DNA from: Streptosporangium becharense
GTDB taxonomy: Bacteria > Actinomycetota > Actinomycetes > Streptosporangiales > Streptosporangiaceae
Reading direction: 5' to 3'
Assembly (NCBI RefSeq): GCF_014204985.1
Contig: NZ_JACHMP010000001.1
Coordinates: 5,270,001 to 5,334,000, forward strand
DNA: 64,000 nucleotides
Part shown: positions 34,153-51,508 of the stretch, in pieces
Position numbering within the stretch: the stretch's first letter is position 1
How the letters are laid out: every line of letters begins with the position of its first letter
Notes under the pieces: generated by a model
Database searches by the model: none
The model's input: only the letters and a program-made list of their open reading frames with translations
Told to the model about the DNA's origin: nothing
Translations under genes and position numbers: made by a program

Positions 34153-35187
34153 TCAGAAGACCGCCGGTTCGAGCAGTGTGACGTCGGTGCCGGAGACCTC
34201 GACGGGCACGCCGATGGGCAGGGTCAGCATGGGGTCCGTGTGACCTGTCTCGAACTCGGTCACCACGGGGTATGACGTCCCCTCCAGCACCTCGCCGAGG
34301 ATCACCCGCAGCTGTTCACGGGCATGGGCCTTCCAGAGCCGAGGACGGCCGACGACCAGGGCGGCGATTCCGTCGAGAAGGCCGGCGTGTCGCAGCTGCC
34401 ACAGATCCTTGTCGGCCTGCGCGGGGCCGTAGTCGACGTCGGGGAACTCCAGCACCAGGACATGGTCGCGGTAGTCCGGCTGCCAGGGGGTGCCCAGCAG
34501 CTGTAGCGCGCTTGGAAGGCAGCCGGCGAGAAGGGGCCCCGCCGACGTTCCGCCTCGCAGGGCCTCCCGCGGCGGTGCGGTGTCCACCCGCCGGGGCTGC
34601 GTGGAGTCGAGTGCCCAATCCACGTACTCCTCGATGAGGTCCTCGCATCGCGGGAAGAGGCCGTGTCCCGCCTCCATGACCACACGTTTGAACTCGTTCA
34701 CCGTGAACGGATGAGGTGCGGGACATTCCCCCATCTGGGTGAGGACCGCCGGGCCGTAGAACGTCACGCAGCCGCTGACCGCGTACAGGGCATGATGCAG
34801 CACCGTGGCGTCCGAGTAACCACATATGACCTTGGGGCTGCGGCGGAAGGCATCGTAGTCGAGCAGGTCCAGGATGTGCGTGGCCGCGTAACCGCCCACC
34901 GCCCAGAGGACACCGGCGACGCCTTCATCGCGCAATGCGTTGTTGAACTCCTGCGCACGTTCTCGTCGTGTTCCCGAGCGCCACTCCATGGAGTTTGTCC
35001 TCCGGTCGGCGGCCTCGGCCCGTAGGCCGAACTCACCGCGCACGTTCGCGATGCCCCTCGCGAAGCGCCGGGGGAAGACGTCGCCTCCGCCCCAAGACGG
35101 TGATACCACTCGCACGTGGTCGCCCGGACGTAGCCGGGGCGGACGTCGTACCGGGTCGTGCTCGCCACGTCGTATCAGCTCGTTCAT
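34153..35187 (-). CDS. MccF-like S66 peptidase (LD-carboxypeptidase family)
   Basis: The ATG at 35187 follows GAGAG. The 344 residues carry the S66 layout: an N-terminal RLRPGDHVRVVSPSWGGG, the nucleophile Ser in CGYSDATVLHHAL (about residue 126), a Glu in LEFPDVDYGP (about 248) and His in ETGHTDPMLTLPIG (about 318). Within S66, the compact form with PSWGGG fits MccF-like proteins, which cleave aminoacyl-adenylate-like toxins (microcin C) as self-immunity, better than muropeptide LD-carboxypeptidases. That reading is inference strengthened by the context. It is the last gene of a nine-gene operon with two tRNA-synthetase-like proteins and starts 7 bp after the ProRS-like gene. Confidence 0.82.
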   Translation of the reverse strand: MNELIRRGEHDPVRRPPRLRPGDHVRVVSPSWGGGDVFPRRFARGIANVRGEFGLRAEAADRRTNSMEWRSGTRRERAQEFNNALRDEGVAGVLWAVGGYAATHILDLLDYDAFRRSPKVICGYSDATVLHHALYAVSGCVTFYGPAVLTQMGECPAPHPFTVNEFKRVVMEAGHGLFPRCEDLIEEYVDWALDSTQPRRVDTAPPREALRGGTSAGPLLAGCLPSALQLLGTPWQPDYRDHVLVLEFPDVDYGPAQADKDLWQLRHAGLLDGIAALVVGRPRLWKAHAREQLRVILGEVLEGTSYPVVTEFETGHTDPMLTLPIGVPVEVSGTDVTLLEPAVF

Positions 35188-35194
35188 CGGTCTC

Positions 35195-36370
35195 TCACAT
35201 CCCGTTGCCGGAAAGCATGCCGGGCAGATCTCCCAGAGAGACGGTCTGCGGTCCGTCCAGGGGAGATCTGACGACGATCGCCGTCCCCTCCTCCAGCTCT
35301 CTCTTGCCGATGACGACCACCAGGTCGCAACCCAGCGCGACGGCCCGATCCTCCCTCATGCCGAAACTCTGCCGTACCGCATCATCGAGAAGGCACGCCA
35401 CGTCGCCCGAAAGGGTGCGTCCCAGGACGTCGCGCAGGCCGCTGATCTCGTCCCTGCTGAGGGATGGGTGGGCCAGAACCGCGAACTGGAACGGCCTGAG
35501 CGGACCGGGCATCGAACGGAAACCCGTTCCGCACGCGCGGTCCAGGACAAGATTGATCAGGCGCTCGATACCCCACCCGTAGGAGCCGGCGATCGCGTGC
35601 TCTTCCTGCCGGGAGGTGGCGACCTCCATGTACATGGCAACGGTGCTGGTCCGCCCGACGTCACGAAGGTCACCGAACGACTCGGAAGCGCGGATGGACA
35701 CCCCGCGCTCGTCCAGCCGCTCCTCGCCGCCCGCGTCGTGTACGACGAACTGCACGTACGCGAGATCGCGTTCCAGCACCTCCACTCGCGCGTAGGGGAT
35801 GCCCATCCAGTCGAGGAACCTTTCGAAGGTTCCCTCCACCTCGGCATGTATCTTTCGCAGGTCCTCCCGGGTTCGGGCGGAGGCGTAGAGGTCGCACATG
35901 ATGAACTGGCGCAGCCGAATTAGCCGCTTGGGGCTGTCGACGTGCCGGAACTTCGGTCCGATCTGGAACAGCCGGATCTCGTCGCGGGTGAACAGACCTC
36001 GGCCGGCGATCCAGTGCTCGAAGGTCTCCTCGTATGTCGCGCCCAGGCCGACGACCCCGCTGATGGGCGCCTGCGCTCTGTACATCTGGTGCTGGTGCGG
36101 ACGCAGGCGTTCCACCTCCAGTGACAGCTCCGGCGGCAGGAGGAGCGGGAACTCGATTTCCTGGAAGTGGGCCGCCGCGATCTCGTACCGCAGCCGGTCG
36201 CACAGCGCCTCGCGTATCCGCAACCCGACGGGCGACCATGTCAGCAGTCCGGCACCGATGCTCTTGTCGGCGATGAGCGCTTCCAACCGGGAGCGATCCA
36301 GCGTTCCGGAGGAGAAGTCGGAAAACGACGGCCACAGCCACGGGTCCGAACGCAGAACAGTTATTCCCAC
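35195..36370 (-). CDS. Prolyl-tRNA-synthetase-like protein (class II)
   Basis: This 391-residue protein starts at a GTG behind AAGGG. The N-terminal part resembles ProRS motif 1 (GAGLLTWSPVGLRIREAL ... FPLLLPPELSLEV). Motif 2 is FQIGPKFRHVDSPKRLIRLRQF-type: its Arg is kept, but the acidic residue usual in FRDE is not. Motif 3 is GSYGWGIERLI. The C-terminal ~90 residues (FQFAVLAHPSLSRDE ... LGCDLVVVIGKRELEEGT) are an anticodon-binding-type domain. There is no editing insertion, and the protein is shorter than bacterial ProRS (about 565). It could load proline or an analogue for biosynthesis, or be a resistant synthetase protecting the producer. It lies between the radical SAM and MccF-like genes. 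Confidence 0.82.
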   Translation of the reverse strand: MGITVLRSDPWLWPSFSDFSSGTLDRSRLEALIADKSIGAGLLTWSPVGLRIREALCDRLRYEIAAAHFQEIEFPLLLPPELSLEVERLRPHQHQMYRAQAPISGVVGLGATYEETFEHWIAGRGLFTRDEIRLFQIGPKFRHVDSPKRLIRLRQFIMCDLYASARTREDLRKIHAEVEGTFERFLDWMGIPYARVEVLERDLAYVQFVVHDAGGEERLDERGVSIRASESFGDLRDVGRTSTVAMYMEVATSRQEEHAIAGSYGWGIERLINLVLDRACGTGFRSMPGPLRPFQFAVLAHPSLSRDEISGLRDVLGRTLSGDVACLLDDAVRQSFGMREDRAVALGCDLVVVIGKRELEEGTAIVVRSPLDGPQTVSLGDLPGMLSGNGM

Positions 36371-36449
36371 ATTATCACCCTTGCCCCTGATATTCGCTTG
36401 GTTGAAAATGAAGTCATTTTTTCGTATTTGTGTGGGGAAGAATGATTTG
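36371..36449. other. AT-rich spacer inside the operon
   Basis: This 79-bp gap between the radical SAM and ProRS-like genes is clearly AT-richer than its surroundings (TGAAGTCATTTTTTCG-type sequence). It could hold an internal promoter or processing site for the last two genes, which are the putative immunity part. Confidence 0.4.
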
Positions 36450-38096
36450 TCACTGGTGGAACAGTGGTCGGTCGGTCATGCGGGCCTCCGGGCCGGCCAC
36501 GAAGACACCGTATTTCGCGAGCGTGTCCAGCTGGGTCCGTATGTTGGCGACCCCGCGGTCGACGTCGCGGAAATCCTTCGGTGTCATCCCTATGCGCTCG
36601 ACCGCTTTCTCGACGGCGATGTTCTCCCACCTGCCGAGCTGAGGCATGAGCAGATGCTGGTACTCGGCCTGCCACAGGCGCAGTACGGCGCGGTCGTTCG
36701 TATGGCGGACCAGGTCGAGCGTGTCGTGGTTGAGCCTGCGCGCCTCGTGGACGTCCATTCCGATGTGCGACCACGAGTAGTCGGGATTGTCGGGGTCATG
36801 GACCTCGATCTTCAGACGCTCCCGGTCCTCCCACAGAGGCATCGTCTCGTCCGAGATGCTGAAGACGCTCAGCATGAAGTGGCCCGCGTACTCGTTTGCG
36901 AGGAAGTCACGGGTCAGCGCGAAGTCGTCGGGCGTCTCACCGGGGTATCCGGCCATGAAGGAACAGCGGTAACCCAGCCCTCCCTCCGTCAGAAGGCGGA
37001 ACGCACGGAGGTTGTCATTGCGCGTCACCTTCTTGTTCATGTGCTTCAGCGTGCTGTCGCTCATGGACTCGAAACCGATCGAGAGGAACTGGCAGTGGCT
37101 CGCTGCCAGCTGGTCGATCAGCTCCGGCGTCTTCAGGACGTTGGCGCGGCTGTAGGCCTCCCACCCGACTCCGACGTCGGGCAGCAGCTTCATGAGTTCA
37201 CGCAGCCGGGTCGGAGGCACGGTGAACGTGCTGTCCATCGCCGAGATGTACGTCGCGTTGTTTATCTCCGCGTATGACGCCCAGTCGTCGCGGATCTTCG
37301 TAGCGGACTTGTACCTCCACTTCGGGCTCGCCGCCGGAAACGAGCAGAATTTACAGCTGAACGGGCACCCGCGCATGGACTCGTAGGGGATGACCCGCCA
37401 CTTCCCGTTCGGATGGGGCGATGGATACCCCTCCAGATCCAAGTAGGCGAAATGGTTGACCCGGTAGCCCATGAGGTCCCGGGGCTCGCGATAGACGAGG
37501 TTCGGTACGGCGCCGAGGTCCGTGCCCTTGCGCAGGGCTGTCAGGAGGGTGGGGAGCGCCTCCTCCCCGTCACCCCGGACGATGAAGTCGACGCGCGGCA
37601 TGCTCCGCATGATCGATGCGTATTTCAAGTTGCTGTACTGGCCGCCCAGGATCAGCGGGACGTCCGGAAGTGCCGAGCCGATCCAGTCGACGACCCGCTG
37701 CAGGTCGCGATCGCTCCAGATGAAGCTCGTGGAGAGCAGCACGGCGTCATAGGCGCCGTGTCGCAGTGGAGGCGGTGTCTCCGTATCCCACAATTGAGTC
37801 GTGTCGTAGTGCTCGGCGGTCACACCCGCGCGTTCGAGGATGCGTTCCAGAGTGAAGGTCGTCAGGTGCGGGACGTTGTAGTAACGCGGGCGGAGCAGAG
37901 GGTAGTCGTCACCTTGGTGATGGAAGGCGAGGCGGCCCAGTCGGAAGCCTTCCAGGGCCGTCCCCGCCAGGTATTCCGCAGCCACGGCATCACCGTTCCT
38001 CGATTCGAGGAAGGTACCCGTGAGGTAATCCGAGTTTTTCAGTGTCGGGCCGAGTCCTGATATCAGTAGAACGTTCATCCCACCGTCTCGTTTCAT
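36450..38096 (-). CDS. Radical SAM enzyme with B12-binding-like N-terminal domain
   Basis: The start is ATG 38096 (GGAG 10 nt upstream) or ATG 38078 (MNVLLISGLG). The 548 residues begin with a Rossmann-like region, with DAVLLSTSFIWSDRDLQRVV near residue 118 and ILGGQYSNLKYA near 150, as in cobalamin-binding radical SAM proteins. The iron-sulfur motif CPFSCKFC (Cys244, 248, 251) follows at the start of the radical SAM barrel. The barrel continues with FLSIGFESMSDSTLKHMNKK and CSFMAGYPGETPDD. The C-terminal ~150 residues are of unknown role. The B12 DxHxxG motif is not obvious, so cobalamin use is uncertain. It probably performs a methylation, cyclisation or rearrangement in the cluster's pathway. 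Confidence 0.85.
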   Translation of the reverse strand: MKRDGGMNVLLISGLGPTLKNSDYLTGTFLESRNGDAVAAEYLAGTALEGFRLGRLAFHHQGDDYPLLRPRYYNVPHLTTFTLERILERAGVTAEHYDTTQLWDTETPPPLRHGAYDAVLLSTSFIWSDRDLQRVVDWIGSALPDVPLILGGQYSNLKYASIMRSMPRVDFIVRGDGEEALPTLLTALRKGTDLGAVPNLVYREPRDLMGYRVNHFAYLDLEGYPSPHPNGKWRVIPYESMRGCPFSCKFCSFPAASPKWRYKSATKIRDDWASYAEINNATYISAMDSTFTVPPTRLRELMKLLPDVGVGWEAYSRANVLKTPELIDQLAASHCQFLSIGFESMSDSTLKHMNKKVTRNDNLRAFRLLTEGGLGYRCSFMAGYPGETPDDFALTRDFLANEYAGHFMLSVFSISDETMPLWEDRERLKIEVHDPDNPDYSWSHIGMDVHEARRLNHDTLDLVRHTNDRAVLRLWQAEYQHLLMPQLGRWENIAVEKAVERIGMTPKDFRDVDRGVANIRTQLDTLAKYGVFVAGPEARMTDRPLFHQ

Positions 38097-38130
38097 GGTG
38101 ACTGGTCTCCGCCGTGTCGTCGGCGGGGAA

Positions 38131-39054
38131 TCAGCGCCACCCCGTTCGTTGCTCCGTCCACGCGCGCGCCGTTTCGGCCATCCGCGCCTGGAAGGGACGT
38201 AGCGTCGGCAGTCCCACCGGGCTGGGCTGACGCGCCATCGAGGAGAACCAGCCGGCGAAGCCGGCGATTATGGCGGTGACGTCCTCGGGGTTCGCGGCGT
38301 AGTCCGACGTGATCCGGCGAGTCGCGTCCTCCGGTGCCGTGCCGTTGTCGGCGGCCACGCTGAGCAAGAAGTAGACCACGTCCACCAGAGCGTTCCCGCG
38401 GCACGCGTAAGCCCAGTCGACGAATACCGGCGGCCTCCCAGGCGTCACGATGATGTTGTCGGAGCGCAGATCAGCGTGAAGCAGCTGGGAGCCTCGCAGG
38501 AGCTTGACGGCCCGCTGTTCGAGGTCGATCAGCGCATCGAGCCATCTGGCCGACCAGGGGTGCAGAACGCCGATGTCGAGTGCGGAGAGCGACCGCCACG
38601 ATTCGAACGCCGCGGCGAAGTGCACGTCCGCCTCGGGCAGGTCGTAGGACGCGTCCAACCGCTGACCCCGCATGGCGTCCAGGGCACGGAGGACGGCGTC
38701 GACGTCCTCCGTGGACCATGGGGTGGGCGGGTTCCCGCCCGGGACGACGGGGAAGGCCAGCACCACCCAGTTCTCCCACTCCAGCGTCCATGACAGCGCC
38801 GGGCCCGTCAGTTCCGCCGGGAGGGAGAGATGTACGCGGGCCTCTTGAAGGTAGAGATCCCTGGCGTACGCGTTGAGGCCGCTGGACGTCGCCTTCACGA
38901 ACGACTTCCGAGCGTCCGCATGGGTGAGTACGCCCGCGAAGCCCGGGGAGAATCCGCCGTGGGCGACGTCAGCTGTGGTTACCCGTGTGCCCGATCGCTT
39001 CTCGATGGACGCGCGTAGACCTGGGGGCAGCTCCTCCCAGGAGATCCGTGGCAT
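38131..39054 (-). CDS. APH-family phosphotransferase
   Basis: The ATG at 39054 starts a 307-residue aminoglycoside-phosphotransferase-fold protein. It has a nucleotide-loop-like HGGFSPGFAGVL, an FVKAT segment with the ATP Lys, the catalytic loop LLHADLRSDNIIV (H-x-D-x4-N) and the metal-binding VFVDWAYACRG. Family members phosphorylate small hydroxylated or aminated metabolites. In this operon it could phosphorylate a pathway intermediate or inactivate the product as self-protection; nothing in the sequence decides. It lies between the LuxD-like and radical SAM genes, all leftward. Confidence 0.85.
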   Translation of the reverse strand: MPRISWEELPPGLRASIEKRSGTRVTTADVAHGGFSPGFAGVLTHADARKSFVKATSSGLNAYARDLYLQEARVHLSLPAELTGPALSWTLEWENWVVLAFPVVPGGNPPTPWSTEDVDAVLRALDAMRGQRLDASYDLPEADVHFAAAFESWRSLSALDIGVLHPWSARWLDALIDLEQRAVKLLRGSQLLHADLRSDNIIVTPGRPPVFVDWAYACRGNALVDVVYFLLSVAADNGTAPEDATRRITSDYAANPEDVTAIIAGFAGWFSSMARQPSPVGLPTLRPFQARMAETARAWTEQRTGWR

Positions 39055-39153
39055 TGCCCAACCTTCGTGTGGTCGTTCCGGCTACCGGTGATTCACACCT
39101 CGGGAAGGTCCCTCGTTCCCGTGGTGGTGCCCACGCGGAACGAGGAATACCGA

Positions 39154-40062
39154 TCAGCCCGCCGGTTCCAGCCGGTATCGCGTCTCACGCCGGCGCTCAC
39201 GGCCGTTGATTGCGATCAGTTCCGCGATGGTGGGTTCCATCAGGGGTTGGTCGCTCATGCCGTAGAACTCGCGCAGAGCGCGGGTCGCGGCGCGCAGCGC
39301 GGACTTGCTCGCTTCCGGGTTCTTGTGCAGCTCGTGGCCGGCGCCGGGGATTCTGTAGGTGTGACGTAGGACTCCGGGATTTCCGCCGTACGCGACCGAG
39401 TAGTCGTCGATGTCGACCCAGTCGTCCGCCTCGGCCACGATCAGGTAGGTCGGCGTGGTCATCCGGTCGATGTCCTGCCGCGTTCCGGACAGGGAGTGCC
39501 ACCCGTTCTGCAGGAGGTCACGCATCCAGGAATCCCCGTCGATCATGTAGTTGAGCGCCTTCTGCCGGCCGTAGAAGTGATCCGGATCGTCGATCAGCAG
39601 GTCGATGTCTTGTCCCGTCGCCGCTCGTACGGTCGAGCCCATGTCGACGACCCCGAGCATGGAGACCAGCGCGTCGACCCCCGCCGGTTGCTCGGCCAGG
39701 TGCCGGAGGGCGATCCGGCTGCTGATGCTTCCCGCGAACAGCGACAGGCCGTTCCCGAAGGCGAGCGACTTGCTGACGGTGCCCAGCACCGCGGCCAGGT
39801 CGGACCGGGCCGAGGAGGCCGTGAAACGATCGAACTCGCCCTCGCTGTTGCCCCGGTGGTTCGTGTAGTCGAACCGTACGACCTGGAATCCGTTGCTGAC
39901 CAGGTAGAGCATCGGCAGCAGGCCGTGCCGTACGGTGCCTTCGAACTGGGGTGCGATGACGATGATCGGTGCGTCCGGTGCCGCGATGCTGTGAACGCAG
40001 TGGATCCGCCTGCCCTCGGGGCTTTTGACCTCGAAGACTTCTTCCTGATACTCGGCGTGCAT
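39154..40062 (-). CDS. LuxD-like acyl transferase/thioesterase
   Basis: The 302-residue alpha/beta hydrolase starts 4 bp after the LuxE-like stop. It matches LuxD more closely than generic esterases. The nucleophile motif is LFAGSISSRIALRHLAEQ (LuxD has A-S-x-S-A), the Asp is in IVAEADDWVDIDD and the His in PGAGHELHKNPEAS. The N-terminus has APQFEGTVRHGLLPMLYLVSNGFQVV, corresponding to LuxD's AxGFARRMDHFAGLAEYLSxNGFHV region. LuxD releases fatty acid from acyl-ACP/CoA to feed LuxE. Its presence directly after LuxE and in one operon with LuxC argues for a functional fatty-acid reductase complex. Confidence 0.85.
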   Translation of the reverse strand: MHAEYQEEVFEVKSPEGRRIHCVHSIAAPDAPIIVIAPQFEGTVRHGLLPMLYLVSNGFQVVRFDYTNHRGNSEGEFDRFTASSARSDLAAVLGTVSKSLAFGNGLSLFAGSISSRIALRHLAEQPAGVDALVSMLGVVDMGSTVRAATGQDIDLLIDDPDHFYGRQKALNYMIDGDSWMRDLLQNGWHSLSGTRQDIDRMTTPTYLIVAEADDWVDIDDYSVAYGGNPGVLRHTYRIPGAGHELHKNPEASKSALRAATRALREFYGMSDQPLMEPTIAELIAINGRERRRETRYRLEPAG

Positions 40063-40066
40063 TGGA

Positions 40067-41224
40067 TCACCTATTCAGCTGTGCGCGGTCGAGTTTGAGC
40101 GCGCAGCCGCGCGACTCGACTTTCTCGACACGACGGGTGAACTCGATTCCCTGACCGCGCCGCCCGCACCGGCACTCCCCGTCGAGTACGGTGCGCGCGT
40201 AGTCGTCGGTCAGGATGAATCCCGGATAGCTCGTCGCGGTGGGGTCCACGAACGCCAGCAGTCCCTGCCGCCCGTTGGCGACCGGCTGTAACGTCCGCGG
40301 GTCGAGCGTGAGGACGTGGATCCACGGCGGAACGTGCTTCACGTGGAATTCGCATTCCGCCAGGATGCTGTTCAGCTCCACCATGTTGAAGAAGTCCCGT
40401 ATGCGGCTCGGGTCCAGCCCCTGGAACCTCTTGGTCAGGTGGCCGACGAACTCCTCGCGCGGGATGGAGGAGCCGCGGAACCGCTTCCAGCCGCCCGCCG
40501 TGATGACGAACAGGTTCTCGCAGTCTTCGAGGAGAATGCCGTTCTCCGTCATGTACTCGTCCAGGTGCAGGAACATGATCGGAGCGCCGACCAGGAGGAC
40601 GTTCTCAGCGTCGCCGCGCGCCTCCTGGATCCGCCTGACGACCTTCGCCGGGTCGAACACGCCGTCGACGACGAAGTTCTCGGTCGGGAAGAGCATGTCC
40701 GTGACGGCCATGGCGTAGGAGAACCACAGGTCTCCGGCCTCTTCCTTGGAGGGCCCCAGATGCAGGCAGAAGGCGTCGTCGAGGCCCAGGAGCTGGTCGA
40801 CACTCCCCTGGATCGAGCCGAGGAACCGGCACAGTGTCGTCTCGTCGCGATGGACGAGGCTCATCGAGCCCTGGGTACCGGAGCTGGTGCAGACCTTCAC
40901 GATCGCTTCTTCTGGGCCGGTGCGCACCTGGCTGATCTTGAACTGGGATGACGTGATCAGCGGGATGCGGGCCAGGTCCTGGAGAGTGTTCAGCTGGTCG
41001 GGCTCAAAGCCGGATTTCTGGCAGTACTGGCGGTAGGTGGGATTGTGTGTGAAATGGTGGTCCACCGCGTTGCGTGCCATCGTGAGCTTCAGCGTCTCGA
41101 TCTCCGCGGCCGAGGCGTGGTAGATGTCACTCCGCTGGAACACCCAGTCGTCGAGCACGCTCACCGCTTCGAGCGGGTCCCAGAGAAGGGATGCCCCGGT
41201 GTCTCGCGTGATGGGTTCGTTCAC
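40067..41224 (-). CDS. LuxE-like acyl-protein synthetase
   Basis: The GTG start overlaps the methyltransferase stop (GTGA). The 385 residues show the LuxE pattern: YRQYCQKSGFEPDQLNTLQD, IPLITSSQFK near residue 95, the ATP/adenylate motif CTSSGTQGSMSLVHRDE near 113 and ITAGGWKRFRGSSIPREEF near 243. The C-terminal SRGCALKLD (residues 370-378) has the Cys that in LuxE carries the acyl thioester. LuxE activates a fatty acid as acyl-AMP, acylates itself and passes the acyl group to LuxC. An additional GECRCGRRGQG motif precedes the C-terminus, as in related adenylating enzymes. Confidence 0.88.
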   Translation of the reverse strand: MNEPITRDTGASLLWDPLEAVSVLDDWVFQRSDIYHASAAEIETLKLTMARNAVDHHFTHNPTYRQYCQKSGFEPDQLNTLQDLARIPLITSSQFKISQVRTGPEEAIVKVCTSSGTQGSMSLVHRDETTLCRFLGSIQGSVDQLLGLDDAFCLHLGPSKEEAGDLWFSYAMAVTDMLFPTENFVVDGVFDPAKVVRRIQEARGDAENVLLVGAPIMFLHLDEYMTENGILLEDCENLFVITAGGWKRFRGSSIPREEFVGHLTKRFQGLDPSRIRDFFNMVELNSILAECEFHVKHVPPWIHVLTLDPRTLQPVANGRQGLLAFVDPTATSYPGFILTDDYARTVLDGECRCGRRGQGIEFTRRVEKVESRGCALKLDRAQLNR

Positions 41225-42075
41225 CTGGCCAGCTTCCTTCCCAGCACGTAGAGGTTGTTGCTCCGTGGGGCGATTCCCGGCTCTTCCAGGACCGCGCGCT
41301 CAAGCCGGTAGATCCGCTCAAAGGAGTCCGCGTCACCGAGGATGCTGGCGAGGGTCTCGGTCTGCCCGCGAAGCTGCGTCTCCTGGTATCCGGGGTAGAT
41401 GAGGTTGGGGAAACCGGTCGTGAGGACGGGTTCCAGGTCCAGCCGCCGGTAGACGTTCTCCAACTGGGCCGGGGTGAAGACGTGCATGTGGGGCATCGTG
41501 GTGGTGAACCGGCCCCGGCGGCTGACGGTCGGATGTTCCGCCTCGTCCAGCTGACGGGTCATGATGTTGAAGAACATCACGTGGTAGCGGTTGGGGACGA
41601 ACGACAGGAGATAGCCGCCCGGGGCGACGAGAGTGCTCAGGCGCCTGAGCACATCCTCCACGTCTTGCACGAACCCGAGGACGTTGTGGAAGTTGAAGAC
41701 GATGTCGAAGGGCCCGGTGACGGGTGAGCAGTCGATTTCCTCAAGGCGCCCGTTGACGACCTCGAACCGGTCTGACCAGCCGTTCCGCTCGGCCTTCTCG
41801 CGGGCCTTCTGCGACATCTCGACCGACAGGTCGAACAGGACGCCCCGCGCTTTCGGGTACGCTTCCAGGATTTTCGAGCTCCAGCGTCCCGTCCCACCTC
41901 CCGCGTCCAGGAAGCGGAAGTCCTCCGGCAACTCGTCAAGCGTCCTGCTGAACACCGACCACAACAGGCGGTCGGACAGGTTCCAGTATTCTTGCTGGTC
42001 CACCAGGTCGTACTCTTCGGCCTTGTCGGCGAAGTATTCTTTGACGCTGTCCTCGTAGGCGAGGTCATAAGTCAT
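41221..42075 (-). CDS. Class I SAM-dependent methyltransferase
   Basis: Start chosen at the ATG 42075 (MTYDLAYEDSVKEYFADKAEEYDL); the open frame upstream runs antisense-like into the LuxC gene and is not conserved. The 284 residues have the SAM-binding motif I FLDAGGGTGRWSSKIL near residue 55, an acidic VLFDLSVEMSQKA at motif II, and the post-motif region FDIVFNFHNVLGFV. The acceptor could be O, N or C; it cannot be told from sequence. It is wedged between the LuxC-like and LuxE-like genes and overlaps the latter by 4 bp, so it surely acts in the same pathway. Confidence 0.85.
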   Translation of the reverse strand: MTYDLAYEDSVKEYFADKAEEYDLVDQQEYWNLSDRLLWSVFSRTLDELPEDFRFLDAGGGTGRWSSKILEAYPKARGVLFDLSVEMSQKAREKAERNGWSDRFEVVNGRLEEIDCSPVTGPFDIVFNFHNVLGFVQDVEDVLRRLSTLVAPGGYLLSFVPNRYHVMFFNIMTRQLDEAEHPTVSRRGRFTTTMPHMHVFTPAQLENVYRRLDLEPVLTTGFPNLIYPGYQETQLRGQTETLASILGDADSFERIYRLERAVLEEPGIAPRSNNLYVLGRKLAR

Positions 42076-42143
42076 GGATGGGCACCGCTTTCCGTTCGAT
42101 CTGAGTGCTTGTCGTGTCGTCGGGCCGTCCGACGTGGCGGGCT

Positions 42144-43670
42144 TCAGCCGGTGACGGCGGTCTCGGGCAAGCCGGCGCCGTCGGCCGCCGGGAGCGTGTC
42201 GATGTCCTCGGTCAGGGTCTCGTGCACCATGAGGAACTTTGTGGTGTCGATCGGGCCGTTCTCGATGTACTTGCCCCAGTAATCGAGCCCGCGTTCGACG
42301 CCGACCCAGCGCAGCAGGCTGTGCATCGGATAGATGTTGTCGTGCGGGATCCCGATGCGGTGCCACTCGGCGAGCCCGACCTCCGTGATCTTGGAGGCGC
42401 CGCGCAGCGTCGCCTCGTCGCGGATCTCGGGGTTGCGGTTCCACGGCGAGATGATGATCGTCTGTGTGTCCGGAGTGCAGTGGTTGACCGCGTCGCCGAT
42501 GTCGTCGACGGGGATCACATAGATCGTGCGGCTCAGCGGATGCTCGTTGATGTGGCCGGGGTCGGGAACGACCGTGACGGTCCAGGCAGTGCCGCCCTCG
42601 GGTGAGGTGTGCACGTCGTTTCCGGAGTAGAGAGCTTCGAGCCGGGCCCGAGACACCAGGGCGTGGGCGTCGTCGGAGACGAAGCCCTTCGGCAGCAGCC
42701 GGTCGTAGAGGTTGAGCGCTTCGATGAGGTTGGCGGTGAAACCCGCCGTGTTCTCCCGCCCTTCGACGAACACCATCTGCGGGGAGAAGCAGGCTTCCTG
42801 GTTGTAGATGGCGATGTCGTGTGCGAGATCGATCGCGACCTTCTTCGACCCGGCGGATTCCGCGCCGATCAGGGCGAAGCTGCTCTTAGGCCCGAACTCC
42901 AGGACGCTGACACCGGTGCGGACCAGTTCCTTGACCCGCTTCACCGGCTTCTCGCCGCCCCAGACGCAGGCCACGTCCGCCAACCTGATGAACTTCTCCT
43001 CAGCGGGGTCGCCGCCGGGCCAGTAGAGGACGTTCATCGACTGGGTCACCGGGTGGTCGGGATCGATCTCGTGCATCGAGAGCGCGAAGTACAGCGCCGT
43101 GATGGGGTCGCGCTTCGGCAGCTTGGCGATGGTCGTGTTCTTCGTGATGATGCCCCGGATGAGCGACATGATGCTGGAGGCCGGGACGTTCCCCACCATC
43201 ACGTGAAGCGCGTTTCCCCACGGATGCGCGTGGACCAGTGCGTCGTTCCGCACGAGCCAGTCGTCCAGGTAGAAGCGGCTGCCGATCTCCGCGTCCAGCA
43301 TGTCGTACAGGGCCGCGCCATAGGTGCACAGGACATGGATGAGGTTGAACTCACGCTGGGCCATCTTCCGGCTCATGCCGGAGATCGCCGACATCTGATC
43401 GAGCGCACGTCGGTACAGTGGGTGATCCATGTTCTCGATCGCCCAGAACCGGCCGACCTTCTGGAGGAAGGCGACGATTTCCTGGATGTGCAGTCTCGCG
43501 AGGCCGAACCTGTCGTGCGCTTCGAGTTGGGCGATCTCCGCCTGCGTGATGACCGGGATCCGGGCCCGGGCCGCGGTCTCGTAGCTGAGGACATGCGCCT
43601 CGCGGTCGGGGGCGAGGAAGATCGGCCGCCCACCCAGGAAGATGGGGAGGTCGATGTCGGTGTCCGTCAC
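42144..43670 (-). CDS. LuxC-like acyl-CoA/acyl-protein reductase
   Basis: The start is the GTG at 43670, 6 nt after AAGGAG; an upstream extension is not supported. The 508-residue protein is a LuxC-family reductase of the aldehyde-dehydrogenase superfamily. It shows HAHPWGNALHVMVGNVPASS (near residue 155), IIRGIITKNTTIAKLPKRDP-type nucleotide-site sequence (ITKNTTIAKLPKRDP) and VLEFGPKSSFALIGAES. The catalytic Cys lies in IYNQEACFSPQMVFVEG (about Cys291). It reduces enzyme-bound acyl groups to aldehydes with NADPH. No luxA/luxB luciferase gene is present in the window, so the aldehyde presumably goes into a metabolite. Confidence 0.9.
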   Translation of the reverse strand: MTDTDIDLPIFLGGRPIFLAPDREAHVLSYETAARARIPVITQAEIAQLEAHDRFGLARLHIQEIVAFLQKVGRFWAIENMDHPLYRRALDQMSAISGMSRKMAQREFNLIHVLCTYGAALYDMLDAEIGSRFYLDDWLVRNDALVHAHPWGNALHVMVGNVPASSIMSLIRGIITKNTTIAKLPKRDPITALYFALSMHEIDPDHPVTQSMNVLYWPGGDPAEEKFIRLADVACVWGGEKPVKRVKELVRTGVSVLEFGPKSSFALIGAESAGSKKVAIDLAHDIAIYNQEACFSPQMVFVEGRENTAGFTANLIEALNLYDRLLPKGFVSDDAHALVSRARLEALYSGNDVHTSPEGGTAWTVTVVPDPGHINEHPLSRTIYVIPVDDIGDAVNHCTPDTQTIIISPWNRNPEIRDEATLRGASKITEVGLAEWHRIGIPHDNIYPMHSLLRWVGVERGLDYWGKYIENGPIDTTKFLMVHETLTEDIDTLPAADGAGLPETAVTG

Positions 43671-43718
43671 GGTGTTCTCCTTAACAAGATGTACGGGCTT
43701 GGAAACGGGGCCCATCCG

Positions 43719-44756
43719 TCAGGGGATCGTGACAACGCCGTTGTACCGCTCGAGCAGCTGGCTGTCCCTGATGTCCGCATGGTTGAGCAACCAGCAGATG
43801 TAACGCTCGACGCCGAGACCGAATCCGGACGTCCGCATCGGGAACTGCTCGCGCATCTTGATGTACCACTCGTACGGGGCAGGGTCCACGCCGTGACGCT
43901 TGAGCGCTAGACGAACGTCCTCGGCCGTCGTGTGACGTTCGCCCGAGCCGACGGTCTCACCCATCCCGATCAGGAGATCGGCCGCCAGCGCCTTCTTCCC
44001 GTCGGCGTCCGCGAAAGCCTGGTAGAAGGGGACCGACAGGTGGTCGGGCTTGACCACCCAGCAGAACCCGCCGAGCCTGCCCATCAGTTCCTTCTCACCG
44101 GCACGGGTGAGCACGGGGAAACCGGATTCGTGCCATCGGACCAGCGAGTCGTCGGCACCCAGCAGTTCCACCGCCTCGTCCATGGTGATCTGCGGGATGT
44201 GGTCCGACTCCAGGAAGTCGGTGATGTGCTTGGTGCCGCCCTTGATCCTGCCGCCCAGCTTCTTGAAGATGTTGGCGGTCATCGTACGGAGGTAGCGCTC
44301 GACAAGCGCCATGACGTCGTCGATCCCGCCGGGAATCTCGGCCTCGCTGTGAAAAAACTGGCACAGGTGCGTCGCGTCGGCGTCCTCACCGCGGAAGCTC
44401 GGCATCAGGTAGTAGGCACCCGCCTGGTTGAGGCGGCATCCGTACTCGAGCATGAACTGCATCGAATCCGCGAGATAGGTTCGCACGTTGAACAACTCGA
44501 TCTCCACGGGCAGCGAGTCGCTTCCCAACCCCATGGGGCTGGAGATGGAGTGCGTCGTGATCGGCAGGTGCAGGTTACGAAGGCCCGCCGCCGAGAAGAT
44601 CTCGACGGTGTTCTGGGTGACGAGGTCCTGTACCTCGGTGAGCAGCGCATACCACGGATCACCGATGATCTGGAGAAACCGGTCTTTGGCCCCGGCGCCC
44701 TCTCGCTTCGAGTCGCCCGTGGAGAACGACGAGGCGCGTTCCGTTGTGCTGGTCAC
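43719..44756 (-). CDS. Asparaginyl-tRNA-synthetase-like catalytic protein lacking anticodon domain
   Basis: The GTG at 44756 follows AAGGGAG. The 345 residues cover only the class II catalytic core. The N-terminal helix region (LTEVQDLVTQNTVEIFSAAG) leads into motif 1, with HLPITTHSISSPMGLGSDSL. Motif 2 is PSFRGEDADATHLCQFFHSE with Arg and Glu intact, and motif 3 is SGFGLGVERYICWLLN. AsnRS and AspRS normally have an N-terminal OB-fold anticodon domain of about 100 residues, which is absent. Such stand-alone cores (for example archaeal asparagine synthetase A-like proteins) act on free amino acids or other acceptors instead of tRNA. It is the first gene of the operon. Confidence 0.85.
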   Translation of the reverse strand: MTSTTERASSFSTGDSKREGAGAKDRFLQIIGDPWYALLTEVQDLVTQNTVEIFSAAGLRNLHLPITTHSISSPMGLGSDSLPVEIELFNVRTYLADSMQFMLEYGCRLNQAGAYYLMPSFRGEDADATHLCQFFHSEAEIPGGIDDVMALVERYLRTMTANIFKKLGGRIKGGTKHITDFLESDHIPQITMDEAVELLGADDSLVRWHESGFPVLTRAGEKELMGRLGGFCWVVKPDHLSVPFYQAFADADGKKALAADLLIGMGETVGSGERHTTAEDVRLALKRHGVDPAPYEWYIKMREQFPMRTSGFGLGVERYICWLLNHADIRDSQLLERYNGVVTIP

Positions 44757-47768: not shown

Positions 47769-50045
47769 ATGCGGGTTCCAGTAGTACTTCAGCACAGCGT
47801 CGCAGAGTGCGGGGCCGCCTGCCTCGCGATGATCCTCGGCGCACACGGGCATCACCTCTCCATGCGTGCCCTGGCCGACGAGATGGGCATAGGCCGCGAC
47901 GGCGTCAGCGCGCTCACCCTGGTGCGCGTCGCACGGGCACGCGGGCTGACCACTCGCGCGTTCTCCCTGCCGGCCGAGCAGGTGCACGCGATCCCCCTGC
48001 CGGCCGTCGCGTACTGGCGATCCCGGCACTTCGTGGTGGTGGAGCGGGTGGCCGGGGAACGGATCACGATCGTCGACCCGGGGATCGGGCGGCTCAAGCT
48101 CACCCGGGAGGAGTTCGCGAAGGACTACAGCGGTGTGGCCTTCACCTTCGCCCCCTCCCCTGACTTCGAGCGGGGACGTTTCGGCGAGCAGCGCTCCTGG
48201 TGGTCGCGCTACATCCGGTTCAGCGTCCTGAACCACCGGGGCATCCTGGCCGTGCTGGTGCTGCTCAGCCTCGTCCTGCAGGGGCTCGGGCTCGTCCTGC
48301 CCGCCGTCACCGAGAGCATCGTGGACCGGGTGCTGGGACGCGGGGAGATCGACCTGCTGTCCCTGCTGGGGCTGGCCGGGGTCGCGGCGGTGCTCGCCCA
48401 TCTCGCACTGGGAGCGGTGCGGGCCTGGGCACTGGTCGTGCTGCGAGCCCGTGCCGACACCGTCCTGCTCGACGATCTGGCCAGGCGGTTGCTCGCCCTG
48501 CCGTTCCGCTTCTTCGCCCACCGGGGCTCGGCCGACCTGGTCGCGCGGATCACCGGGGCCAGTCTGTTGCGGGAGATCCTCACCGGCCAGGTGTTGTCGG
48601 CCCTGCTCGACGTCCCGCTCGCCGTCGTCTACCTGGTCGCGGTCACCGTCCGGTCGCCGCTGCTCGGCGGAGTGCTCGCCCTCTTCGCCGGTGCCCAGTT
48701 CCTCGTGGTCCTCCTCACCCGGCAGCGGATCCGCGACCTGGTCCACCGGGAGCACGAGGCGCGCAATGACGCGCAGGGACAGCTCATCGAGGCCGTCAAG
48801 GGCATCGAGACGATCAAGTCGGCCGGGGCGGAGCCTCAGGTTCTGCGACGGTGGACCCGCCTGCTGGACGTTCAGATGCGGCGGGTGCGGCGAAGCTCGT
48901 TCGCCCAGGGCATGCAGGACACCGTCCTGGCGGCGCTGAGGTTCGCCGCCCCGCTGGTGCTGCTGTGGGTCGGCGCGTGGCAGGTGGTGGAGCACCGGCT
49001 CACCGCGGGTGCGATGCTCGGTGTACTGGCATTGGCCGCCGCCGCGTTGGCGCCGCTGGCGTCGTTGACCGGCAGCCTGCGGGGTCTCCAGACCGCCCGT
49101 GCCCAGGCCGAGCGGCTCGCCGACATCTGGGAGACCGCTCCCGAGGCCGTCTCCGGCGCTGCTTCCGACGGTGGTTCCGGCGCTGTTTCCGGCGGTGTTT
49201 CCGGCGGTGGTTCCTGCGGTGTCCGTGACGGTGCGACGGGTGATGAGGGTGCGGCTCCGCGCACATCCCCCCCGGCCCCGGCCCCGGCTGACGGCTGTCT
49301 CGGCGGCACGGCGCGGGGGAGCGGAATCGAGATGAGGGGGGTCGGTTTCCGGTACGCGCCCGAAAGCCCGTGGATCGTCCGCGGGATCGACCTGAGCATC
49401 GCCCCGGGGCAGAAGGTCGCACTGGTCGGCAGGTCGGGGTCGGGCAAGACCACCCTGGCGCGGCTGCTCCTGGGGCTGTTCCCACCGGTCGAGGGTGAGA
49501 TCCGCTACGACGGGGTGCCGGTGTCCCGGCTGGATCGGGGACGGCTGCGGCGCCGCTTCGGGGTGGTCACCCAGGAGCCGGCCCTGTTCACCGGCTCGAT
49601 CGCGGACAACATCGCGCTGGCGAGTCCCGACGCGTCCCCGGACGAGGTGGAGGAGGCCGCCCGGCTGGCGTGCGTCCACGACGACATCGCCGCCATGCCC
49701 ATGGGGTACCACACCCCGCTCACCGAGGGGGCGGGACTGTCCGGCGGCCAGCGCCAGCGGATCGCCCTGGCCAGGGCGATACTGGCCCGTCCGGAGTTCC
49801 TGCTGCTGGACGAGGCCACCAGTCACCTCGACACCGACACCGAGGCGGCGCTGAGCACGAGCCTCGGCACCCTTCCGCAGACGCGGATCGTGATCGCCCA
49901 CCGGCTGAGCACGATCAGGGACGCCGACCTGATCCTGGTGCTGGACGGTGGCCGGATCGTCGAGAGCGGCGTGCACGACACGCTGATCGACTCGGCCGGC
50001 CTGTACGCGGGTCTCGTCCGTGCGCAACTCTCGGTGGGCCCCTGA
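47769..50045 (+). CDS. Bifunctional C39 peptidase / ABC exporter for a RiPP
   Basis: The 758-residue protein has an N-terminal bacteriocin-processing C39 peptidase with Cys14 (AECGAACLAMIL), His87 (RSRHFVVVERV) and Asp103 (IVDPG). It then has a six-helix ABC membrane domain (about 155-450) and an ATPase domain with Walker A VGRSGSGKTT (about 554), LSGGQRQR (about 657), Walker B LLLDEAT (about 677) and the H-loop IAHRLST. The peptidase cuts precursor peptides after a double-glycine while exporting them. It stands 152 bp upstream of a small precursor gene with exactly such a leader. The linker between membrane and ATPase domains (about 458-520) holds a Gly/Ser/Val repeat insertion. Confidence 0.93.
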   Translation: MRVPVVLQHSVAECGAACLAMILGAHGHHLSMRALADEMGIGRDGVSALTLVRVARARGLTTRAFSLPAEQVHAIPLPAVAYWRSRHFVVVERVAGERITIVDPGIGRLKLTREEFAKDYSGVAFTFAPSPDFERGRFGEQRSWWSRYIRFSVLNHRGILAVLVLLSLVLQGLGLVLPAVTESIVDRVLGRGEIDLLSLLGLAGVAAVLAHLALGAVRAWALVVLRARADTVLLDDLARRLLALPFRFFAHRGSADLVARITGASLLREILTGQVLSALLDVPLAVVYLVAVTVRSPLLGGVLALFAGAQFLVVLLTRQRIRDLVHREHEARNDAQGQLIEAVKGIETIKSAGAEPQVLRRWTRLLDVQMRRVRRSSFAQGMQDTVLAALRFAAPLVLLWVGAWQVVEHRLTAGAMLGVLALAAAALAPLASLTGSLRGLQTARAQAERLADIWETAPEAVSGAASDGGSGAVSGGVSGGGSCGVRDGATGDEGAAPRTSPPAPAPADGCLGGTARGSGIEMRGVGFRYAPESPWIVRGIDLSIAPGQKVALVGRSGSGKTTLARLLLGLFPPVEGEIRYDGVPVSRLDRGRLRRRFGVVTQEPALFTGSIADNIALASPDASPDEVEEAARLACVHDDIAAMPMGYHTPLTEGAGLSGGQRQRIALARAILARPEFLLLDEATSHLDTDTEAALSTSLGTLPQTRIVIAHRLSTIRDADLILVLDGGRIVESGVHDTLIDSAGLYAGLVRAQLSVGP

Positions 50046-50197
50046 CGGGCCCGGCATCGTGGTCGTTCCCTGACGCATGACAAGCCCCAGCGAAGTCGAT
50101 CACGACATGCGACTTCAAGCTTCACCAGACGTTCACAAGGAAAGAGCGCGATATTCGCCGTGAGATCACTTTCTCACAAGGAAAGGAGGAAGGCTTC

Positions 50198-50374
50198 ATG
50201 AGCGCGACACCGCGTACGGAACTCGGGGACATCGCCCCGGTCGGTATGGAGCTGGACGAGAGCGCGCTGGGCGCCATCAGCGGCGGTGCGGGCCCCGTGA
50301 TCGTCACGGGGGAGTACTTCGACCCGCCGGGCTGGTGCCAGGACGACAAGCCTCCGTCGAAGGTGCCGTGGTGA
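50198..50374 (+). CDS. RiPP precursor peptide with double-glycine leader
   Basis: A 58-codon gene starts at ATG 50198 behind AAAGGAGGAAGG. The leader has the classic amphipathic pattern GMELDESALGAISGG, with Gly29-Gly30 as the predicted cleavage site for the C39 exporter just upstream. The predicted core of 28 residues contains possible acceptor side chains (Thr37, Lys51, Ser54, Lys55) and donor carboxylates (Glu39, Asp42, Asp49, Asp50), as required for ATP-grasp omega-ester or omega-amide macrocycles. It also has one Cys (47), several Pro and Trp46/Trp58. The next gene encodes the matching ATP-grasp ligase. The core does not match a graspetide motif that I recognise. Confidence 0.82.
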   Translation: MSATPRTELGDIAPVGMELDESALGAISGGAGPVIVTGEYFDPPGWCQDDKPPSKVPW

Positions 50375-50451
50375 CGGCTGTCCCTGCTTGAGGGGGACGG
50401 ATCTCACCGGACACGGGGACGGCGCACGTTCCCGCGTCCGGTGACCCTGTC

Positions 50452-50492
50452 GTCCCGGGCCCGCCGCGGATTCCCCGCGGCGGGCCCGGGAC
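50452..50492 (+). terminator. Strong hairpin between precursor and ATP-grasp genes
   Basis: A perfect 18-bp stem (GTCCCGGGCCCGCCGCGG and its complement) closes a 5-nt loop. A weaker hairpin (TCACCGGAC / GTCCGGTGA) precedes it at about 50404-50444. It probably attenuates transcription so that the precursor is made in excess over the enzymes. Confidence 0.75.
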
Positions 50493-50520
50493 CCGCGCAG
50501 CCAGCTCTCGAAGGAGATCC

Positions 50521-51507
50521 GTGTCACCTCCGCATGTTCTCGTCCTCACATGTGACGACGACCCGCACGCCGACCACGTGCGGCGCCTGCTGGACCGGCG
50601 CGGCGCTCGCACGACCGTCTTCGACAATCGGGACTACCTCCTCCGGGCCCACGTGGAGCTGGCGTACACAGCCCGCGGGTTGGCCCGGCGGTTGCTGCAC
50701 ACCGAGTCCGGCACGCTCGACCTGGACTCGCTGACCGCGCTGTGGTGGCGGCGCCCCGGGTGGCCGGAGGCCCACCCGGCGATCACCGACCCCTCGGTGG
50801 CCGAGTACGCGGTCAGGGAGGGTGTGCACCTGATCAGCGACCTGTGGGAGCACCTGACGTGCCGCATGGTGCCCGCGCGCGAGTCGGTGTTCCAGCGGGC
50901 CGAGCACAAGCCGTCCCAGCTCACCCTGGCCGCGGAGCTGGGGTTCGAGATCCCGGAGACGCTGATCGCGACCCAGGCGGACGCCCTGTGGGACTTCCAC
51001 AACCGCCATGACGGGCGCATCGTCACCAAGACCCTGGGGTTGCCGCGGGTGGAGAACCTCGCGGCGGGCCACACGGTCATCCGCAAATGCGACTTCGTCT
51101 CGGCCCGCGACCTGGCGTACGCGGAGGCGCTGCGGTTCTGCCCGGTCATCGTGCAGGAGTACGTGCCCAAGCGGCTGGAACTGCGGGTGACCGTCGTCGG
51201 CCGGCGGGTGTTCGCGGCCGAGATCCACTCCCAGGACAGCAACCGGGCGATGGTGGACTGGCGCCGCTACGACCTGGGAGGCACCCCACACCTCGTGCAC
51301 CGGCTTCCGGACGAGGTCGCCGAGCGGTGCCTGGCGATGACGGACCGTCTCGGGCTCTCCTACGGGGCCTTCGACCTGGTCCTGACCCCGGACGACCGGT
51401 ACGTGTTCCTGGAGATCAACCCCAACGGGCAGTGGCTGTGGATCGAGGAGCTGACCGGCCTGCCGATCAGCGAGGCGGTCTGCGACCTGCTGCTGGAAGG
51501 AGCCTGA
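50521..51507 (+). CDS. ATP-grasp peptide ligase (graspetide-type maturase)
   Basis: The GTG start follows AAGGAG. The 328-residue protein resembles the MvdC/MvdD and SAV_5884-type ATP-grasp maturases. Its N-terminal pre-ATP-grasp domain begins VLVLTCDDDPHADHVRRLLD. The central part has KPSQLTLAAELGFEIPETLI and VTKTLG (ATP Lys). QEYVPKRLELRVTVVG and FAAEIHSQ carry binding residues, and FLEINPNGQWLWIEELTGL carries the Mg-binding Glu and Asn. Such enzymes phosphorylate Asp/Glu side chains of a precursor core and link them to Ser, Thr or Lys. It lies between the precursor gene and the PpiC-related maturation gene, 2 bp before the latter's start. Confidence 0.9.
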   Translation: MSPPHVLVLTCDDDPHADHVRRLLDRRGARTTVFDNRDYLLRAHVELAYTARGLARRLLHTESGTLDLDSLTALWWRRPGWPEAHPAITDPSVAEYAVREGVHLISDLWEHLTCRMVPARESVFQRAEHKPSQLTLAAELGFEIPETLIATQADALWDFHNRHDGRIVTKTLGLPRVENLAAGHTVIRKCDFVSARDLAYAEALRFCPVIVQEYVPKRLELRVTVVGRRVFAAEIHSQDSNRAMVDWRRYDLGGTPHLVHRLPDEVAERCLAMTDRLGLSYGAFDLVLTPDDRYVFLEINPNGQWLWIEELTGLPISEAVCDLLLEGA

Positions 51508-51508
51508 C

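Follow-up and report, generated by a model that had tools for sequence, protein, structure and literature searches.

What might a bacterium make with a fatty-acid reductase of the kind known from luminous bacteria if no luciferase accompanies it and two enzymes resembling tRNA synthetases are encoded alongside? The question is raised by a nine-gene operon of Streptosporangium becharense (NCBI RefSeq assembly GCF_014204985.1), located on contig NZ_JACHMP010000001.1 within a stretch of 64,000 nucleotides (positions 5,270,001 to 5,334,000, forward strand) that was analysed as a whole and is called the window below. An earlier note, made from the sequence alone, described LuxC, LuxD and LuxE in this operon together with an asparaginyl-tRNA synthetase (AsnRS)-like and a prolyl-tRNA synthetase (ProRS)-like protein, and supposed that an acyl aldehyde is combined with one or two activated amino acids. 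From homology and gene context we conclude, with moderate confidence, that the product is a nucleotide antibiotic resembling agrocin 84 and phosmidosine, with prolyl-tRNA synthetase as its likely target. It is predicted to be a stable aminoacyl-adenylate mimic in which an N-acyl phosphoramidate linkage, C(=O)-NH-P, attaches the amino acid to an adenosine 5'-phosphate-like nucleotide.

The key to this reading is the AsnRS-like protein. At 40.5% identity over 93% to agnA of the agrocin 84 plasmid pAgK84, it is homologous to AgnA, the synthetase of the agrocin 84 pathway, and no anticodon-binding domain was found in it by Pfam. The agrocin toxin TM84 contains an N-acyl phosphoramidate bond (PMC5059758). 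Its kinship with AgnA leaves the former view of this protein as a simple amino-acid activator without support.

The surroundings of AgnA homologues were compared by counting neighbouring genes with tblastn at 92 AgnA loci, cited here by our own L numbers. Ninety of them are distinct (L038/L072 and L039/L107 are the same contigs), and L041, a stretch adjoining L040 that lacks AgnA, was excluded. Controls were 38 stretches of 20 kb at arbitrary round coordinates in genomes of the window's class. The scan of genome contigs took the best 80 of 189 AgnA relatives, and lower-ranking Lux clusters may be missed; the queries were drawn partly from the tested loci, and six synthetase types (Pro, Ala, Leu, Met, Thr and Gly) were sought. 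An MccF-type S66 peptidase was found at 65 of the 90 distinct loci (66/92) and an S-adenosylmethionine (SAM) methyltransferase at 55 (56/92), compared with 0/38 controls for each. A full-length extra aminoacyl-tRNA synthetase (aaRS) was present at 26/90 distinct loci and in 2/38 controls; two further matches, at L029 and L069, had been dropped from an initial 28 because they were the ProRS-like core itself. Without the loci that supplied queries, the counts are 62/87 for the peptidase, 53/88 for the methyltransferase and 18/82 for the full-length synthetase. By best match the 26 cluster synthetases comprise seven Met, five Ala, five Leu, four Pro, three Gly and two Thr enzymes; each of the ten full copies checked with NCBIfam passed one or more of the curated cut-offs for its type, and at L049, L108 and others the type comes from the best BLAST match only. 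The GlyRS genes lie at L089:13008-14384, L092 and L101, in Clostridium- and Bacilli-type metagenome-assembled genomes (MAGs). On annotated plasmids, AgnA homologues often have a methyltransferase, an S66 peptidase and the core of a class II synthetase as neighbours, and in some cases a full synthetase, which is LeuRS in the Xenorhabdus and agrocin loci and AlaRS in those of Exiguobacterium and Peribacillus; most of these partners are absent from the plasmid loci L030, L031 and L035. AgnA, methyltransferase and MccF, often with synthetase genes, are a recurrent set. On the Pantoea agglomerans plasmid (L031:14446-16041), the AgnA-like core forms the C-terminal part of an annotated GNAT acetyltransferase and is followed by an MFS transporter gene; five more Pantoea records carry the same GNAT annotation under the AgnA match.

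If a cluster synthetase protects its producer, another copy is expected elsewhere in the genome. Such a copy was detected, by similarity alone, in 12 of the 17 genomes tested (MetRS 5/5, LeuRS 3/3, AlaRS 2/3, ThrRS 1/2 and ProRS 1/4); these could be ordinary paralogues, and a role in self-resistance is only putative. For the second LeuRS of the L065 genome and the second copies of MetRS, the matches are partial or reach 29-39%; the L079 genome also has a 63% match. All five genomes with no second copy (L043, L052, L053, L062 and L105) are MAGs, in which the assembly may be incomplete or the cluster copy may be the sole one, and uncultured assemblies also occur among the genomes with a second copy (L042, L067 and L093). 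Since the partner genes are so much commoner than in the controls and second synthetase copies exist, the AgnA family looks like a group of makers of aminoacyl-adenylate mimics, comparable to agrocin 84 and phosmidosine, equipped with self-resistance. MetRS genes lie at the AgnA loci L044, L054, L058, L079 and L093, and since a further MetRS-like match was found elsewhere in each of the five genomes, these loci are suggested to make methionyl-adenylate mimics. A broader generalisation, to which we give slightly less than even weight, is that AgnA marks a multi-phylum class of such antibiotics: AgnA would build the P-N nucleotide, a core synthetase or another enzyme would pick the amino acid, the duplicated synthetase would reveal the target and, in the Lux-bearing branch, LuxC, LuxD and LuxE would supply an aldehyde-derived group.

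The amino acid is addressed by the second synthetase-like protein. In an alignment of nine ProRS-type proteins, the Thr and Glu of the TxE loop, to which we ascribe a proline-binding role, are kept in all nine, and so are the Arg residues of motifs 2 and 3. The Glu of motif 2 is present in the three ProRS copies of the clusters (FRDE, FRNE and YRDE) but lost in all six cores (FRHV in the window, FRNI in L042, FRFR in L052 and L069, YRQL in L103 and WRDL in L043). A precedent is AcmF of the ascamycin pathway, a truncated AlaRS-like protein in which most of the residues needed to bind ATP and activate alanine are missing and which was shown by test to deliver the alanine of Ala-tRNA to a nucleoside sulfamate, the Ala-tRNA being supplied by AcmD, a second and more resistant AlaRS (PMC12945691). 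The words agrocin, phosphoramidate and asparaginyl do not occur in that review. Because of the lost motif-2 Glu and the AcmF precedent, and although the Arg residues of motifs 2 and 3 persist, the ProRS-like core may work as a transferase dependent on Pro-tRNA and not as the activating enzyme it had been taken for. If so, ascamycin would share with the window operon a core-only synthetase-like transferase that acylates a nitrogen of an adenosine derivative, whereas its product is a sulfamate rather than a phosphoramidate and bears alanine rather than proline. Proline as the amino acid and ProRS as the target are our best guess because L042, the closest relative of the operon, combines a core of the ProRS-like type with an additional ProRS.

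The Lux proteins retain the residues expected of a functional set. In small alignments with the luxCDE-type genes of a laboratory Escherichia coli plasmid (L122, annotated as acyl-CoA reductase, acyl transferase and ligase) and related loci, LuxC Cys294 is conserved in 4/4 sequences, LuxE Cys374 in 5/5 and LuxD Ser112, Asp213 and His243 in 4/4; we take these to be the catalytic residues. The window proteins are 26-34% identical to those of L122 and stay below the NCBIfam cut-offs (LuxC, NF052251, 311.8 versus 750; LuxE, NF052244, 257 versus 550; LuxD, NF052253, 76.2 versus 420 bits). As already noted earlier, LuxC, LuxD and LuxE thus form an apparently intact acyl-aldehyde-forming set, and no luxA or luxB accompanies them in the operon or among the 39 window open reading frames scanned with Pfam, a subset of those in the window. 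The gene at 23478-24434 (+) was considered as LuxA/B and rejected; it encodes a luciferase-like monooxygenase that NCBIfam assigns to TIGR03885 and lies on the opposite strand at a distance of about 10 kb.

LuxE and LuxD matches were found at 3/92 AgnA loci (L042, L043 and L094), LuxC matches at two (L043 and L094). L042 is a contig, cut at both ends, of a Herpetosiphonaceae (Chloroflexota) MAG, and its proteins are 62% (AgnA), 61% (methyltransferase), 59% (LuxE) and 53% (LuxD) identical to those of the window. It also encodes a NIF3-like protein, the ProRS-like core, a HIT protein and a 406-residue ProRS that matches its family in two stretches (488.8 bits versus a cut-off of 306.7 for TIGR00409; 537.3 versus 558 for NF006625), a separate ProRS being found elsewhere in the genome. 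L043, from a Deltaproteobacterial MAG, combines AgnA, methyltransferase, LuxD, LuxC, LuxE, a ProRS-like core and a full ThrRS, and L094, from a Legionella MAG, combines AgnA, LuxD, LuxC and LuxE with a ThiF-rhodanese protein, a cysteine desulfurase-like aminotransferase of class V and an asparaginase. Since all three Lux genes lie beside AgnA in two other MAGs and LuxD and LuxE in a third, they are probably a real module that adds an aldehyde-derived group. It is unlikely that AgnA and Lux genes came together by chance in such different gene orders; the instances are four, one of them without LuxC, and thus few. The earlier view of a biosynthetic operon is supported, and AgnA together with LuxC, LuxD and LuxE is found again outside the host phylum. 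The tabulation of Lux genes with synthetases across actinomycetes that had been recommended brings little gain: at E <= 1e-50, LuxE is found in one of 396 sampled genomes of the host phylum, the window's own, and among 158 genomes of the class of L042 only in that of L042 itself. LuxE was also seen in another setting, followed by genes for an Fe-S scaffold and a cysteine desulfurase, at L127:7207-9990 (read by eye) and at L123:7708-10718 (an annotated Priestia plasmid, with a carrier protein); AgnA has no match in L127 and none is annotated in L123.

A pathway can be proposed from these homologies. The AgnA-like enzyme, which has the AsnRS fold with its ATP motifs kept, would use ATP to form the P-N nucleotide, with nitrogen from asparagine or ammonia. 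Genes of the Asparaginase_2 type are present in AgnA loci L094, L113 and L116, the last also with a HIT-type match, and would fit asparagine as the nitrogen donor. The methyltransferase, homologues of which are 42-61% identical in 16/92 AgnA loci, would methylate the P-N nucleotide, perhaps at the phosphoramidate oxygen; by analogy with phosmidosine it is proposed to be a P-O-methyltransferase. The ProRS-like core, by its homology and its lost motif-2 Glu, would then move proline, probably from Pro-tRNA, onto the phosphoramidate nitrogen, comparable to what AcmF does with alanine on a nucleoside sulfamate. Given their intact residues, LuxD would free an acyl group, LuxE would activate it and LuxC would reduce it to an aldehyde, which would end in the product or in an uptake handle; in the boldest form of the broader generalisation above, the aldehyde would sit on the prolyl amide as a cleavable N,N-acetal cap and bring the drug into the cells it targets. 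The B12-binding radical SAM enzyme would add a methyl group. Its nearest named family, the best of 22 listed, is that of the PhpK-like methyltransferases (TIGR04479, 174.9 versus a cut-off of 600), and homologues 72-75% identical occur in AgnA loci L068 and L075, where no LuxC, LuxD, LuxE or ProRS-like match and only a weak AlaRS-like match (69-76 bits) were found. Because the enzyme is common to clusters of another amino-acid type, it more likely acts on the nucleotide half, although this argument is loose. Protection of the producer would fall to MccF and perhaps to the APH-type kinase. MccF-type peptidases disarm microcin C, and the one encoded here is proposed to confer immunity by hydrolysing the aminoacyl-phosphoramidate amide. 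The kinase, with homologues 33-42% identical in five of the 92 AgnA loci (L044, L068, L075, L079 and L080), may serve self-protection or nucleoside phosphorylation. In a microcin C cluster, a HIT protein hydrolyses the P-N (phosphoramide) bond (PMC7157772).

Several observations weigh against this interpretation. The loop of the AgnA-like protein at the place of the EGG-like motif of AsnRS is different and longer, and its model is poor there (residues 68-74), so the substrate may be other than asparagine. At 21 of the 92 loci (20/90 distinct), MccF and methyltransferase of the types searched for are both absent; AgnA homologues may therefore serve other purposes, and the notion of one function shared by all of them is weakened. 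None of the nine operon genes encodes an exporter or an enzyme able to use an aldehyde, and LuxC is missing from the truncated L042 contig, the nearest LuxC in that MAG being 29% identical. The operon contains no extra ProRS, and the host genome shows one full-length ProRS match. Three of the four ProRS-bearing clusters tested (L052, L053 and L062, all MAGs) have no second ProRS in their genomes, and their cluster ProRS may therefore be the housekeeping gene. The type of the core, moreover, does not prove proline, since core and full synthetase agree in 5/8 loci with both identified (Ala in L032, L034 and L105; Pro in L042 and L052) and differ in 3/8, where a ProRS-like core accompanies LeuRS (L033 and L103) or, in the Lux-bearing L043, ThrRS. 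This count leaves out L089 and L092, where the AlaRS-like matches next to GlyRS are weak (22-32 bits), and the two ThrRS-like open reading frames of L063. The pairing of ProRS-like cores with LeuRS or ThrRS speaks for an antibiotic of the same nucleotide class in which the core has been re-tasked and the amino acid is not proline, with LeuRS or ThrRS, for example, as the target, and so does the low identity (17-24%) of the window core to the eight proteins aligned with it. We nevertheless regard this as unlikely: the TxE Thr and Glu are retained even in L103, all seven PDB matches of the core are prolyl-tRNA synthetases and the extra synthetase of the closest relative is a ProRS.

The Lux genes could also be bystanders, or a separate lipid pathway on a shared transcript, and the product a plain prolyl phosphoramidate like phosmidosine. 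Such a product overlaps with the one favoured here, and the likelihoods of the two are not additive. No LuxC, LuxD or LuxE match was found in 89/92 AgnA loci, and L029 and L069 hold AgnA, methyltransferase, ProRS-like core and MccF in the absence of Lux genes. In the window, however, the Lux genes are interleaved with the others (AgnA-LuxC-methyltransferase-LuxE-LuxD), with gene ends that overlap or nearly touch, and their return next to AgnA in Chloroflexota (LuxD and LuxE), Deltaproteobacterial and Legionella MAGs in different orders makes a bystander role quite improbable. In the scheme of the earlier note, the two synthetase-like enzymes would activate one or two amino acids for joining to an acyl aldehyde, giving a peptide-aldehyde-like compound that retains no nucleotide. 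An operon that holds an intact LuxC/D/E set as well as two class II cores would suit it, but one of these cores groups with AgnA, an enzyme of a nucleotide antibiotic, the other has lost its motif-2 Glu and the peptidase that accompanies most AgnA loci is of the type that disarms microcin C; we hold this for very improbable.

Among known systems, the agrocin 84 cluster (pAgK84, agnA-agnC7) resembles the operon in having AgnA, an adjacent methyltransferase and the MccF-like AgnC5. It differs in having a methyltransferase of another type, leucine-mimic genes and no LuxC/D/E or ProRS-like match in the stretch, and its self-resistance is aaRS-based (the LeuRS AgnB2), whereas such a resistant aaRS copy is lacking in the window operon. 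Phosmidosine is built from prolyl, O-methyl phosphoramidate and 8-oxoadenosine parts. The product predicted from the window genes would resemble it in the prolyl-N-P-nucleotide, the O-methyl phosphoramidate and the ProRS target; the 8-oxoadenine would need an oxidase, which is absent from the operon. Two Streptomyces loci, L029:14926-23068 and L069:10001-16929, encode AgnA, methyltransferase, FAD- and molybdopterin-binding hydroxylase subunits and a ProRS-like core, with an MccF-type match in both. Because this gene set, including the molybdenum hydroxylase, fits the phosmidosine structure, they are candidate phosmidosine clusters; the window operon has the same frame, but where these two loci have the hydroxylase it has genes for Lux proteins, a kinase and a radical SAM enzyme. 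Microcin C shares the idea of a P-N linked aminoacyl nucleotide and an MccF-type peptidase. It differs in its MccB/ThiF enzyme, for which Pfam found no gene among the nine; a ThiF gene is present in L094. With the LuxC/D/E of luminous bacteria the window has in common all three subunits and their putative catalytic residues, and no luxA or luxB luciferase gene was found among its 39 open reading frames scanned.

In the literature, natural phosphoramidate nucleotides are given as agrocin 84, the phosmidosines, microcin C and few others (PMC6429109), and the target of phosmidosine from Streptomyces durhamensis is listed as 'Pro-tRNA synthetase?', the question mark being that of the source (PMC7689648); its biosynthetic genes are not given in the parts searched. 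In a corn endophyte, a gene with a LysRS-like domain is needed to inhibit a fungus, an agrocin 84/phosmidosine-like nucleotide antibiotic being one hypothesis of its authors (PMC5047915). Titles and abstracts searched, a scope that leaves out most subscription papers, contained no Lux-bearing AgnA cluster and no survey of the AgnA family; likewise, no work joining LuxC, LuxE and AsnRS with gene clusters and no use of LuxC/D/E in an antibiotic turned up. The earlier statement that no described pathway has this gene set stands insofar as no characterised cluster was found to match the whole operon; it does not extend to the framework of AgnA, methyltransferase and MccF, which is recurrent and known from agrocin 84. 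The scatter of AgnA relatives over many bacterial groups points to a large, hardly studied antibiotic family, and the combination of AgnA, MccF and a duplicated synthetase offers a mining handle for new tRNA-synthetase inhibitors whose likely target can be read from DNA. An odd operon becomes a testable pathway, the origin of the P-N bond in agrocin-type nucleotides becomes directly testable and the Lux reductase gains a possible job outside light production.

The operon itself consists of nine co-directional genes, all above the Pfam cut-offs for the families that had been assigned to them (Table 1), which are transcribed in the order AgnA-like, LuxC, methyltransferase, LuxE, LuxD, APH, radical SAM, ProRS-like and MccF-type. 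They are separate genes, and the description of the reductase as fused into the operon was mistaken. Three of the eight junctions are tight, with an overlap of 4 bases between methyltransferase and LuxE and gaps of 4 bases between LuxE and LuxD and of 7 bases between ProRS-like and MccF; the remaining five gaps measure 34-99 bases. Starts later than that of the longest open reading frame were preferred, by eye, for LuxC (GTG at 43670) and the methyltransferase (ATG at 42075).

Table 1. Genes of the operon, with window coordinates, listed in the order of transcription.
Gene product	Length (residues)	Coordinates	Strand	Family match and features
AgnA-like protein	345	43719..44756	-	tRNA-synt_2 94.7 bits; AsnRS/archaeal asparagine-synthetase-type catalytic core
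LuxC acyl reductase	508	42144..43670	-	PF05893 257.5 bits; Cys294 kept
Class I SAM methyltransferase	284	41221..42075	-	PF13489 (Methyltransf_23) 57.9 bits
LuxE acyl-protein synthetase	385	40067..41224	-	PF04443 214.4 bits; Cys374 kept
LuxD acyl transferase/thioesterase	302	39154..40062	-	PF02273 (Acyl_transf_2) 75.9 bits; Ser112/Asp213/His243 kept
APH-type small-molecule kinase	307	38131..39054	-	PF01636 42.8 bits
B12-binding radical SAM enzyme	548	36450..38096	-	PF04055 72.9 bits and PF02310 39.7 bits; CxxxCxxC present
ProRS-like core	391	35195..36370	-	PF00587 (tRNA-synt_2b) 35.7 bits; TxE loop kept, motif-2 Glu lost
MccF-type S66 peptidase	344	34153..35187	-	PF02016 (Peptidase_S66) 101.8 bits and PF17676 (S66C) 87.3 bits

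The operon was probably acquired by its host, a genome of 7.8 Mb, because no close homologue of the AgnA-like gene was found among 15 other genomes of the genus (best E value 8e-15, no better than for ordinary synthetases). One stretch of the window shows 80% identity to Nonomuraea gerenzanensis, in keeping with an actinomycete host. Roughly 3 kb upstream of the operon, window positions 47769-52600 (+) encode a C39-peptidase ABC exporter, an ATP-grasp peptide maturase (GRASP_SAV_5884-like, 241 versus a cut-off of 350 bits) and a TIGR04500 maturation protein (319 versus 180 bits), and this is probably a ribosomal peptide cluster.

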